A DNA stretch of 64,000 nucleotides from NCBI RefSeq assembly GCF_000739375.1, contig NZ_CP006704.1, forward strand, positions 5,518,001-5,582,000, in the 5' to 3' direction. The notes beneath the pieces were generated by a model. The model did no database searches and was not told the origin of the DNA. It was given only the letters and a program-made list of their open reading frames with translations. Origin of the DNA: Comamonas testosteroni TK102 (GTDB taxonomy: Bacteria; Pseudomonadota; Gammaproteobacteria; Burkholderiales; Burkholderiaceae_C). Both the position numbers and the translations under genes were made by a program. This document shows positions 21,639 to 35,258 of this stretch, piece by piece (within the stretch, counting starts at the first letter, position 1; each line of letters begins with the position of its first letter).

Positions 21639-21740
21639 TACTTTTGATAGCTTGCTGCGCATGAAAACAAAGGGTTTCAATGCTTTTATGCATTGAAACC
21701 CTTTGTTTATTGGCCAAAGCAGCTATTAAATTGATGCTCT
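21638..21740. repeat. Large AT-rich palindromic repeat (family 2, copy R1)
   Basis: The core is a perfect 19-bp stem (21665-21683 with 21690-21708) around a 6-nt loop, nested inside outer arms GATAGCTTGCTGCGC (from 21646) and GCAGCTATTAAA (to 21730). It lies between two convergent genes and could terminate transcription from both sides. The core AGGGTTTCAA-TGCTTT is shared with 27037-27053, and the overall plan with 33701-33795 inside the acyl-CoA carboxylase gene. Confidence 0.8.
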
Positions 21741-27004: not shown

Positions 27005-27100
27005 CAATAAAAAGAGCTGTTTGCGCTTTATTTACAAGGGTTTCAAATGCTTTCAGCGATGAAACCAAGTAATACATGCGCTAACAGCTCTTTTTTAATG
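27005..27100. repeat. AT-rich palindromic repeat (family 2, copy R2), probable bidirectional terminator
   Basis: The outer arms pair over about 18 bp with one mismatch (AAAAAGAGCTGTTTGCGC at 27009-27026 with 27078-27096), and an inner GGTTTCA/TGAAACC pair lies near the centre. A-runs on the left and T-runs on the right suit termination in both directions between the convergent DUF3297 and hmp genes. The core is shared with 21638-21740. Confidence 0.75.
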
Positions 27101-31892: not shown

Positions 31893-34800
31893 TTACCATG
31901 TGTCCACAAAGCGGCTGCCTTCCTCGCGCAGGCGCGCACCGGCCAGGCCGCGCACCAGCCAGGCGCGGGTCTCCGCGGGGTCGATGACGGCATCGACTTC
32001 CAGCGTGGCCGCCATGTGCATGGCCTCGCCATGTGCGTATTGCTGGGCCAGCAGCTTCTCGAACAGCGACTCGCGCTGCGCGCCCTCGGGCAGGGCTTCG
32101 AGCTCCTTGCGAAAGCCCAGCCGCACTGCCCCTTCCAGCCCCATGGCGCCGAACTCGCCCGTGGGCCAGGCCACATTGAAGATGGGCGCATGGAAGCTGC
32201 CCGCCGTCATGCCCATGGCGCCCAGGCCGTAGCCCTTGCGCAGCACCACGCTGAAGTACGGGACGCGCAGCTTGGCCGCCATGACGAACAGCCGGCTGAC
32301 ATGGCGCACCTGGGCGGTTTTCTCGATCTCCGGCCCCACCATGAAGCCGGGCGTGTCGACCAGGCTGACGATGGCGATGCCGTGGGCATTGCACAGCTGC
32401 ATGAAGCGCGCCGCCTTGTCCGCCGCATCGGCATCGATGGCACCGCCCAGATGGCCCGGGTTGTTGGCCATCAGCCCCACGGGCCGGCCCTCGATGCGCG
32501 CCAGCGCCGTGTGGATGCCGACGCCGAAGCCGACTCTCAGCATCAGCAGGCTGCCCTCGTCCACCAGCCCGGCCATGGCGGCGCGGGTGTCGTAGGCACG
32601 CAGGCGATTCTCGGGCACGACGTGGCGCAGCAGACGCTGGTCGGGCTCGGACCATTGGTCGATGCGCCCCTGGAAGAAGGACAGATAGTGCCTGGCCGCC
32701 GCCACGGCCTGGGCCTCGTCGTCGACCAGGATGTCGATCACGCCATTCGCATGCTGCACGCTGGCGGGGCCGACTTCCTCGGGCCGGAAGACACCCAGGC
32801 CGCCGCCCTCGATCATGGCCGGTCCGCCCATGCCGATATTGCTGCTGCGCGTGGCGATGATCACATCGCTGCAACCCAGCAGCGCGGCATTGCCTGCAAA
32901 GCAGCGGCCGTGGGTGATGCCCACCACGGGCACCTGACCCGAAAGCGCCGCATAGGCCGCGAAGGTATGCACATGCAGGCCCGCAACCACGGGGGTATCG
33001 GTATCGCCGGGCCTGCCGCCGCCGCCTTCGGCAAACAGCACCACGGGCAGCTTCTGCTGCAGCGCGATGCCCAGCATGCGGTCGGTCTTGGCGTGATTGC
33101 GCGCCCCCTGGGTGCCGGCCAGCACCGTGGCGTCATAGGACATGACCACGGCGCGCGACCGTTCCGCGCCGAACTGGGCTGCATTGATGGAGCCCATGCC
33201 CGTCACCATGCCGTCGGCCGGTGTGTTGGCCACCAGATCGTCGAGGCTGCGCCTGCGTGTCTGCGCAGCAATCGCCAGCGCCCCGTACTCGATGAAGCTG
33301 CCTTCATCACAGAGATCAGCAATGTTTTCGCGCGCGCTGCGGCTGCCCTGGCCGTGGCGCCTGGCCATGGCCTCGGGCCGCGCGGCATCGAGCGTGAAGG
33401 CATGGCGATCCTTGACACGCTGCAGATCGACCCGGATGTGGCCCGGGTCCTGCCGCTGCGCCGCCACCTCGGCATGCGCCGCATCGCCCTGAACGGGCGC
33501 GAGCACCAGCAAGGCCTGGTCCTGCGCCACATAGCTGCCGGCCTCCGCCAACAGCACCTGGACCCGGCCCGCAGCCTGCGCGAACAACACATGCTGCATC
33601 TTCATGGCTTCGAGAATACCCAGCTCGGCGCCCTTGGCCACCGTCTCGCCCACCGCCACAGACCACTGCACGACCCTGGCGGGCATGGGAGCCAGCACTG
33701 CATTTTCAGGAGCTTGATGCGCTTGGTATACATTGTTTTCAGACTCAAAAGTATCTGAATTCTTTGAATGACTTGCGCTTGAAGCTATCTTTTCTGCAGC
33801 CTCCACCAGCTGCGGCAGGACCTCTTCGAGCCAGCGCGTGTGCACGGTCTGCTCCCGCATCTCGGGCCGCCGGGCCAGGGCCTGCAGCAGCGGCAGATTG
33901 GTGGCAAGGCCCGCAATGCGGCAGTCGGCCAGCGCGCGCCGGGAGCGGCGCAGCACATCCTCGAAACGCGGCGCGTGGCTGTGCACGACGAGCTTGGCCA
34001 GCAAGGTGTCGTAGTGCGGCGACGGACTGGCCCCCTGCTGCGCATGACCGTCCAGGCGTATGCCCGGCCCTTGCGGCCAGTGCAGCTCGGCAATGCGGCC
34101 GCCGCCGGGGCGGGAGTGGCCCTGGGCATCCAGGGTTTCGGCATTGATGCGCCACTGCATGGCATAGCCTCGCGGCCTGGGCGGGGCATTCACATTCAGG
34201 CCCAGGTCGGCAAAGTGCTCGCCCGCCGCAATGCGGATCTGGGCCTGCACCAGATCGACGCCAAAGACCTCTTCGGTAATCGTGTGCTCCACCTGCAGAC
34301 GCGGGTTGGCCTCGATGAACACATAGGGCAGGGACTCGGACTGCAGATCGACCAGAAACTCGAACGTGCCCAGACTTTCGTAGCGCAGCCTGGCTGCCAT
34401 GCGCAGCGCGTCCTCGGTGATGCGCTCGCGCAGCGGCTGCGTCAGGCTGGGGCTGGGTGCAATCTCCACCAGCTTCTGAAAGCGCCGCTGCAGCGTGCAT
34501 TCGCGCTCGCCCAGCGCCATCGGCCATTCGCTGCCGTCGCCCAGCAGCTGAATCTCGATATGGCGCGCGCCGCTCATCAGCCGCTCGACATAGACGCCGT
34601 CCACGCCGAAGGCTGCCTGGGCCTCGCTGCGGCAGCGCTGGTAGGCGGCCGCCACTTCTGCAGCCTCGGTGACTGCTCGCATGCCGCGCCCGCCGCCACC
34701 GCCGATGGCCTTGATCATGATGCCGCTGGCCCCGTCGGCCTGCTGGCGCGCAAAGAACTGCTGGGCCTGCTCCAGCGTCACGGCCTCGGGGCTGCCGGGC

Positions 34801-35189
34801 ATCAGGGGCACGCCGCATTGCTGCGCCAGCGCACGGGCCCTGGCCTTGTCGCCGAGAAGCGCCAGCTGCTCTGGCGTCGGGCCGATAAAGCGCAGGCCCG
34901 CTGCCGCACAGGCGCGCGCAAAGTCTGCGTTCTCGCTGAGAAAGCCATAGCCCGGGTGCAGCGCATCGCAACCGTGCTGCTGCGCAATCCGCAGCAGCTG
35001 CGCACCATCGAGATAGGCAGCCGGTCCGCTGGCGCCCAGTGCCTGCGCCTCGTCAGCGGCCTGCACATGCGCGGCCGCCGCATCATCGGCGGCGTACACC
35101 GCCAGGCTGGCAATGCCCAGCTCCTGCAGCGCTCGGATGATGCGCAGGGCGATTTCACCGCGGTTGGCGATCAGGACTTTCTTGAACAT
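31893..35189 (-). CDS. Single-chain acyl-CoA carboxylase (biotin carboxylase, BCCP, carboxyltransferase)
   Basis: A 1098-residue biotin-dependent carboxylase acting on an acyl-CoA. The biotin carboxylase half (about 1-455) starts [20 protein letters not shown] and has the ATP-grasp loop [14 protein letters not shown]. The biotin carrier (about 500-570) has the biotinyl Lys in [10 protein letters not shown]. The carboxyltransferase (about 610-1095) has [28 protein letters not shown] and [15 protein letters not shown]. The linker at residues 466-496 is Ser/Asn-rich, AT-rich at DNA level, and matches an intergenic repeat. Next to an acyl-CoA ligase and a TetR regulator, it probably carboxylates the ligase product. 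The substrate is unknown (acetyl-, propionyl- or a longer acyl-CoA). Confidence 0.9.
33701..33795 (-). repeat. Palindromic repeat (family 2) inserted in frame in the carboxylase gene
   Basis: In gene sense it reads AAAAGATAGCTTCAAGCGCA at the left end and AAGCGCATCAAGCTC near the right end, with TTCAGA/TCTGAA pairing in the centre. Aligned with 27005-27100 it shares CAA-G--TTCA-AT-CTTT, then TGAAA-CAA-GTA-TAC and GCGC with AGCTC, in the same order. It is about 93 bp (31 codons) of low-GC sequence in a GC-rich gene and encodes the linker [20 protein letters not shown] and following residues just before the biotin carrier domain. Confidence 0.75.
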
Positions 35190-35200
35190 AGGACTCTCGT

Positions 35201-35258
35201 TTTAGTAGCTTTTAGCGCTCACCAATCAATGGTCACAACCACTTTTGATGCAAAAAAT
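35201..35258. repeat. Partial family 2 repeat between ligase and carboxylase genes
   Basis: TTTTAGTAGCTTTTAGCGCT resembles one arm of the AT-rich palindromic family (compare 21641-21660), followed by AT-rich sequence to the ligase stop codon. The second arm is not clear. It fills the 69-bp gap between two genes that are probably co-transcribed. Confidence 0.45.

Follow-up and report, generated by a model that had tools for sequence, protein, structure and literature searches.

We report that a biotin-dependent acyl-CoA carboxylase gene of Comamonas testosteroni TK102 carries in frame, between two of its domains, a stretch of DNA that quite probably represents an old, inherited copy of a palindromic repeat family of the Comamonadaceae, the members of which are mostly intergenic and situated away from divergent promoters; that a founding copy entered this linker and was later remodelled we infer. 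The window, i.e., the whole stretch of DNA analysed, comprises 64,000 nucleotides of the 6.06-Mb TK102 genome (G000), and the features that the analysis builds on are (window coordinates):

31893..35189, minus strand: biotin-dependent acyl-CoA carboxylase of 1098 aa (biotin carboxylase, biotin carrier and carboxyltransferase domains), the host gene.
33704..33794, minus strand: coding copy of the palindromic element, carboxylase residues ~466-496 (nhmmer, E=7.7e-12 and E=4e-15; the interval merges two profile matches, 33704-33792 and 33706-33794).
33711..33786, minus strand: exact 76-bp core, AGCT...AGCT, of the carboxylase copy (sequence read directly).
27005..27099, minus strand: intergenic copy with a 75-bp core (27015-27089) and A/T tracts on both sides (RNA fold z -7.6).
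21639..21734, plus strand: intergenic copy with a strong hairpin (covariance search; RNA fold z -9.9).

A sequence-only reading of the window had placed an AT-rich insert, coding for residues 466-496, between the carboxylase and carrier domains, and this insert is present: its 76-bp core extends from the third base of Ile468 (ATA) to Ala493 (GCT), and the Pfam domains on either side of the element are Biotin_carb_C, ending at residue 456, and Biotin_lipoyl, starting at residue 498. The AT content over 120 bases around the element is 56% compared to a window mean of 35%, and carboxylase orthologues are conserved on both sides of the repeat linker. AlphaFold predicted pLDDT values <50 for residues 473-491, in a weak model (mean 65.3) where much of the C-terminal half is also <50, and at gathering scores no Rfam family was matched at the element. 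A degenerate element with a weak match (E=0.08) immediately precedes the carboxylase start codon (window 35198-35234), and many Acidovorax loci (L052, L053, L058, L063, L065, L068, L097 and L098) have copies of a shorter repeat type, described below, at the matching place.

The likeness to the intergenic palindromes at 27005 and 21639, which the same reading had noted, was borne out, since the carboxylase copy can be aligned end to end with both (27005-27099 and 21639-21734). In the surrounding 460 kb the pattern AGCT..GCGC..GCGC..AGCT with AT >48% occurs at seven places, six of them, including the carboxylase copy, exactly 76 bp long. A nucleotide profile built without the carboxylase copy from seven other copies, each in both orientations (one seed being the coding copy in RpoN), matched the carboxylase at model positions 4-92 with E=7.7e-12 (460 kb), and with a second profile, based on 78 copies lacking a through-reading frame, the carboxylase copy was found with E=4e-15 (1.69 Mb). 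The genome-wide covariance search that the reading had suggested as a check, made with a model of seven copies (the RpoN copy included, the carboxylase copy left out), detected the family rather than no similarity, and the carboxylase copy was among the matches (G000:5551701-5551796, E=5.3e-11). Chance likeness, i.e., an AT-rich linker rich in Ser, Ala, Asn and Glu that happens to resemble the repeat, might be entertained because linkers are free to drift, but we give it virtually no credence: it is refuted by the blind profile (E=8e-12) and by 5000 dinucleotide shuffles of the carboxylase copy, 332 of which gave any match and the best 9.8 bits compared to 44.1 for the real sequence, and four further genes have in-frame copies. 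At the sequence level, it is thereby confirmed that the linker stretch belongs, over its full length, to a palindromic family that is dispersed in the genome.

Members of this family share the core AGCT..GCGC..TTTCA..TGAAA..GCGC..AGCT, nearly fixed at 76 bp. With the covariance model, the 6.06-Mb genome yielded at least 150 matches (the best 150 of 1233 candidates), corresponding to at least ~90 places by hand count, and the matches listed all cover model positions 1-96. Among these matches, the places of this long (76-bp) type are by hand count sparse at ~1.6-3.9 Mb and dense elsewhere on the chromosome, an uneven spread that the distribution of core genes could explain. At E<1e-4 we found 107 places in 1.69 Mb of G000 (sequence enriched for matches). 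Core length was counted for the 103 places with E<1e-6, leaving out 24 that could not be anchored, and it is exactly 76 bp in 73 of the 79 anchored copies; the positions of AGCT, CGC and TTTCA, and of the mirror image of each, hardly vary, with much of the remaining repeat having diverged. According to a home-made gene caller, 68 of the 107 places are intergenic, 34 partly overlap a gene call and five are inside one; one of these five (2595896) probably reflects a misplaced start, and the copy in a TPR-repeat protein (see below) was missed by the caller. The genes flanking the 102 non-inside copies are in tandem in 59 cases, convergent in 38 and divergent in five, compared to 400, 135 and 153, respectively, among gaps 80-1500 bp long (Fisher tests: p=8e-6 for divergent gaps, where copies are rare, and p=2e-4 for convergent gaps).

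An open frame runs through the element at nine places, five of them in real genes, which encode the carboxylase, sigma-54 (RpoN), a CT_C_D/CT_A_B fusion, MurD and a TPR-repeat protein. The through-frames at 2862684, 4161179, 5675421 and 5742095 were judged by eye to be spurious antisense frames. In all five host proteins the element is located between or outside Pfam domains. Specifically, in RpoN it follows the activator-interacting domain, which extends to residue 48, and precedes the core-binding domain, which starts at residue 150; in the fusion, which is PxpB-PxpC-like without reaching the NCBIfam equivalog cut-offs for PxpB and PxpC, it lies between the CT_C_D and CT_A_B domains (194 and 268). 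The MurD copy (G000:C1:5224233-5226185) is part of an N-terminal extension of ~140 residues, the N-terminal domain starting at residue 139, and MurD extensions with the element are also present in related genomes. In the TPR-repeat protein, which we tentatively call TadD-like, the copy is in the C-terminal tail and degenerate at its 5' end. A codon-by-codon readout shows GCT in frame in all five coding copies, and this frame is open in 26 of the 140 strand-frames of 70 non-coding 76-mers. The resulting peptides resemble one another, e.g. the carboxylase linker and ENIASCADEATISDMKVPETIEQKAEQAPEN in MurD of another genome (L397). Within a contiguous and unselected 460 kb, three of the 22 matches at E<0.02 are in-frame gene copies; inspection by eye of the top 30 short-type loci of A. 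facilis revealed no convincing in-frame copy. Hence, in Comamonas, repeat DNA is turned into protein sequence within flexible linkers of several proteins.

Judged by description, the closest likeness is to the RPEs of Rickettsia, the best-known case of repeat DNA that has become protein. They are palindromic repeats of ~100 bp that are intergenic as well as coding and tolerated in frame in unrelated conserved proteins (PMC2229807, PMC10969869). The Comamonas family is likewise a multi-copy palindrome found both between and within genes, in several unrelated genes in one frame and in tolerated regions. It differs in that it belongs to free-living betaproteobacteria and has a near-fixed 76-bp core, and its coding copies are old, mostly of a lineage-specific type and have kept rare codons. 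Moreover, in-frame copies account for five of the 107 places in the sequence examined, whereas according to PMC10969869 genes hold nearly half of the RPEs found, from three of ten families.

Two observations suggest that the copies are old and inherited, i.e., the carboxylase copy is common to several genera and the corresponding sites in relatives are filled. In a tree of 60 carboxylases, computed with the linker left out, the repeat-bearing rows fall into two groups, Comamonas/Delftia (15 rows, SH-aLRT 100) and Acidovorax/Simplicispira/Giesbergeria (32 rows, SH-aLRT 97), and in the remaining 13 rows the linker is GC-rich, 31-72 aa long and free of the repeat. Across orthologues the linker ranges from 31 to 82 aa, and together with the 13 of 60 rows that lack the repeat this differs from the uniform linker that the sequence-only reading had named as evidence against an insert. 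The Roseateles linker has 31 aa compared to 54 and lacks the repeat; other linkers without it can be as long as those that have it (Burkholderia-type 51-55 aa, Variovorax soli 53). Within the two groups the repeat cannot be recognised in Delftia, in the sister row of Delftia or in the A. soli/CF316/Root219/A1169 subclade, and it is degenerate in others. The linker of L054 (Acidovorax sp. Root219), a member of this subclade without recognisable element, reaches 82 aa via EP/AP repeats.

The clean 90-95 bp presence/absence polymorphism that had been anticipated was not found: among the Comamonas carboxylase orthologues, the eight that gave a profile match and whose flanks could be aligned (8/8) all have an interval of 101 bp between these flanks, and in Delftia and L039 the interval is 98 bp, with no recognisable long-type repeat. 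Seven places were compared with relatives (the five genes and two intergenic places), and the element is present wherever the flanks match closely, with low element scores in some close relatives (L038 14.8, L321 10.6, L378 12.5 and L403 9.5 bits). At the site that corresponds to the intergenic 27005 copy, L036, L037, L044 and L067 each have a copy as well. In distant relatives the fusion linker is 58, 73 or 79 bp compared to 103 bp, which is not an exact gap, and none of the orthologues of the seven places (7/107) has an exact empty site; the insertion itself is therefore something we infer. A recent, MITE-like mobile insertion in TK102 or its species would agree with the high copy number and the family-wide form of the element, but it is strongly disfavoured and extremely unlikely, as the element occupies the same place across genera, as it is carried by the nearest carboxylase orthologues, the flanks of which are 88-93% identical, and as no exact empty site was seen at the places compared. 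Inheritance from a single entry into the carboxylase linker before the two groups split is instead likely; the fork joining both groups with two Burkholderia-type rows has an unsupported order, and two separate entries are for this reason also conceivable.

The repeat exists in two lineage-specific forms, a shorter one in Acidovorax genomes, ATAGCTGCTAGCGCTTATCCATCAAGCGCTAGCGGCC.., and the 76-bp form in Comamonas. In the A. facilis genome the short type gave at least 150 matches and the 76-bp form 23, with three full-length places; G000 has mostly the long form, and in 1.69 Mb the short form gave 10 matches at E<1e-3, two of which overlap long-type copies. The carboxylase linkers were scored with profiles of each type made from copies outside the linkers; the 14 seeds of the short profile were taken from the flanks of these loci, and several seeds are orthologous and one (L062) is situated in a long open frame. 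Eight of the 10 Comamonas rows score 33-61 bits with the long profile and ≤12.0 with the short, 20 of the 32 Acidovorax-side rows score 14-45 bits with the short profile and <18 with the long, and the other 13 rows score ≤3.0 bits with either. Two Comamonas linkers (L038 and L039) and eight Acidovorax-side linkers have low scores with both. In the genomes nearest to the window the long type is present in RpoN at 12/12 loci (L345-L356; 9.8-51.9 bits, nine above 30) and in the CT_C_D/CT_A_B fusion at 11/11 loci (L316-L326; 10.6-68.8 bits); the anchor pattern used for the fusion was missing in 14 of 37 loci, most of them covered by the flank comparison. Loci L224, L225 and L256, from other genera, have the short type in a weaker form, with E-values of 5e-8 to 2e-9 for the carboxylase-linker profile and just 10-12 bits for the profile from outside the linkers.

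As judged from these profile scores, the repeat type found in a linker is in most cases that of the lineage to which the linker belongs. Since linker lengths are roughly alike while the type differs, replacement in place fits better than a second insertion, and the repeat type of the linker would then have been exchanged in situ. A broader version of this reading, which we consider possible but put at somewhat less than an even chance, is that coding copies and the intergenic repeats of their genome undergo concerted evolution, such that a change of lineage type would rewrite the carboxylase, sigma-54 and fusion linkers in frame by conversion or replacement.

The ATAGCT site of the repeat shows an unusual codon choice. 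Wherever carboxylase orthologues have Ile there, its codon is ATA (37/37) and the following codon is GCT in 36/37, compared to 16 ATA among 1555 Ile codons (1%) and 188 GCT among 6224 Ala codons (3%) in the rest of the gene (background counts from 36 rows selected at the protein level). When 32 Ile and 123 Ala columns in other parts of the gene are ranked by their share of rare codons, Ala columns take the first eight places, the top one with a share of 0.29 (GCT). Other codons at the ATA site are non-synonymous (GTA in L097, ATG in L075). Codon changes at the Ile/Ala site are few and their number is within the range of other columns, as 2/8 Ile and 7/59 Ala columns change as little, and the oddity is thus which codon is kept rather than the rate of change. 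Conservation of the whole element does not exceed that of 4-fold sites (0.70 vs 0.73; 91 pairs, 14 chosen rows), which together with the kept ATA and GCT suggests that the core motif is kept and not the entire repeat. Selection for a translational pause between the domains, with ATA and GCT acting as rare codons and the repeat likeness being secondary, would account for ATA being universal at a site in genes where it makes up ~1% of Ile codons; it leaves unexplained both the ~90-bp match to intergenic copies and the lineage-specific types, and we consider it highly unlikely. Selection, conversion and slow decay would each fit the persistence of ATA GCT.

Non-coding 76-mers are predicted to form strong RNA folds (mean z -6.2, n=70, mononucleotide shuffles). 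Coding 76-mers, from which L227 and L353 were left out as probably not being the element, have weaker folds (mean z -3.8, n=26; p=1.5e-4), and for the carboxylase copy in the window dinucleotide shuffles gave a z of -1.36, which is not significant (23/200 shuffles as good). Non-coding copies have some excess of pairing (0.624 vs 0.581 shuffled, sd 0.006); in nine Comamonas carboxylase linkers pairing does not exceed that of shuffled partners (108/1000 shuffles reach it). Given the weaker folds and pairing not kept above shuffles, the hairpin is probably relaxed in the coding copies. Of the features of an intrinsic terminator, i.e., a hairpin and a T run after it, the non-coding copies, rare in divergent gaps, show a strong hairpin; on the coding strand no T run follows the hairpin of the carboxylase copy.

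These data bear on whether the coding copies are kept as functional DNA or RNA sites, for protein binding, RNA processing or as an antisense terminator hairpin, rather than as tolerated selfish DNA. The near-fixed spacing of 76 bp, the near-invariant AGCT, CGC and TTTCA among otherwise diverged copies, the kept ATA GCT, and coding 76-mers that as a group (26 copies) fold better than mononucleotide shuffles are all in keeping with such a role. We regard it as rather unlikely, because the element is unrecognisable in Delftia and the A. soli subclade and degenerate in eight further Acidovorax-side linkers, because hairpins of coding copies are weaker than those of non-coding ones, and because the window copy does not stand out from dinucleotide shuffles.

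The reading that we prefer, an old and inherited copy, can be laid out as a series of steps. A founding copy would have entered the flexible carboxylase linker before the genera split, and its insertion would have been tolerated for two reasons: one frame (ATA GCT ... GCT) can be free of stops, and the linker is without fixed structure. Later, dispersed copies may have converted or replaced the linker copies, or selection may have acted on the DNA motif, so that the linker copies were remodelled towards the current family form of the lineage. Candidates for the first spread of copies would be a transposase acting in trans or template copying. Mobilisation by a RAYT was considered and set aside: there is one Y1_Tnp gene (G000:C1:832907-833203), which does not adjoin a family copy, and the nearest copy found, at 822861, is ~10 kb away and the sole family match in 815001-835000. 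The proposal of the sequence-only reading, that a mobile or spreading repeat entered a tolerated linker, hence stands with respect to a family copy in frame in a tolerated linker, such copies being present in four other genes too, and found no support with respect to mobility.

Relatives of the short type are in print. Two potential novel motifs are given in PMC5217627 (Table 7): GCTTAT(N)5AAGCG, with 114 copies in Acidovorax ebreus, five of which are in genes (44 with convergent, 59 with co-oriented and 4 with divergent neighbours), and ATAGCT(N)22CAAAAG, with 125 copies in Polaromonas naphthalenivorans, 18 of which are in genes. The short type holds GCTTAT-N5-AAGCG exactly, both in the A. 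facilis linker and in intergenic copies, and by its letters corresponds to the A. ebreus motif, the neighbour counts of which are much like those of the long type reported here; the Polaromonas motif resembles the short type. In the sections of that source drawn on here the motifs are unexplained and mostly intergenic, in-gene copies being counted and not treated as protein insertions, and the 76-bp Comamonas form is absent from its Table 7; the long-type copy of the window is a different form. An open-licence literature search turned up no description of palindromes used in frame in Comamonadaceae, whereas the short intergenic form is in print for this family (PMC5217627).

Other known repeats are set apart mainly by description. 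The BRE of Bordetella is ~90 bp, mostly intergenic with some copies wholly within coding sequence, and has also been reported from Comamonadaceae, but according to the data given in PMC3110155 its GC content is 69% on average and it is often in tandem, whereas seven copies here are 53-63% AT (the search required AT >48%). REP/RAYT systems and MITEs (ERIC, YPAL, NEMIS) are palindromic repeats near gene ends as well, with in-frame fusions of ERIC and YPAL being described in PMC2229807; compared to REPs, the Comamonas family is longer and its copies do not flank the RAYT-like Y1_Tnp gene. Acidovorax, Comamonas and Delftia are not named in the portion of PMC3733652 drawn on here, and VeiPR1 is another palindromic repeat, in Verminephrobacter (PMC3975124).

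Our findings extend protein-coding palindromic repeats to free-living betaproteobacteria, and to important genes (sigma-54, MurD and the carboxylase). They also provide a test system for whether such repeats are selfish or carriers of DNA signals, for which the rare codons kept by the motif offer a direct handle, and for whether dispersed repeats can homogenise copies within coding genes. Moreover, AT-rich linkers in Comamonadaceae proteins should not be taken as ordinary protein evolution and, if concerted change is true, a pool of non-coding repeats would keep rewriting parts of proteins.
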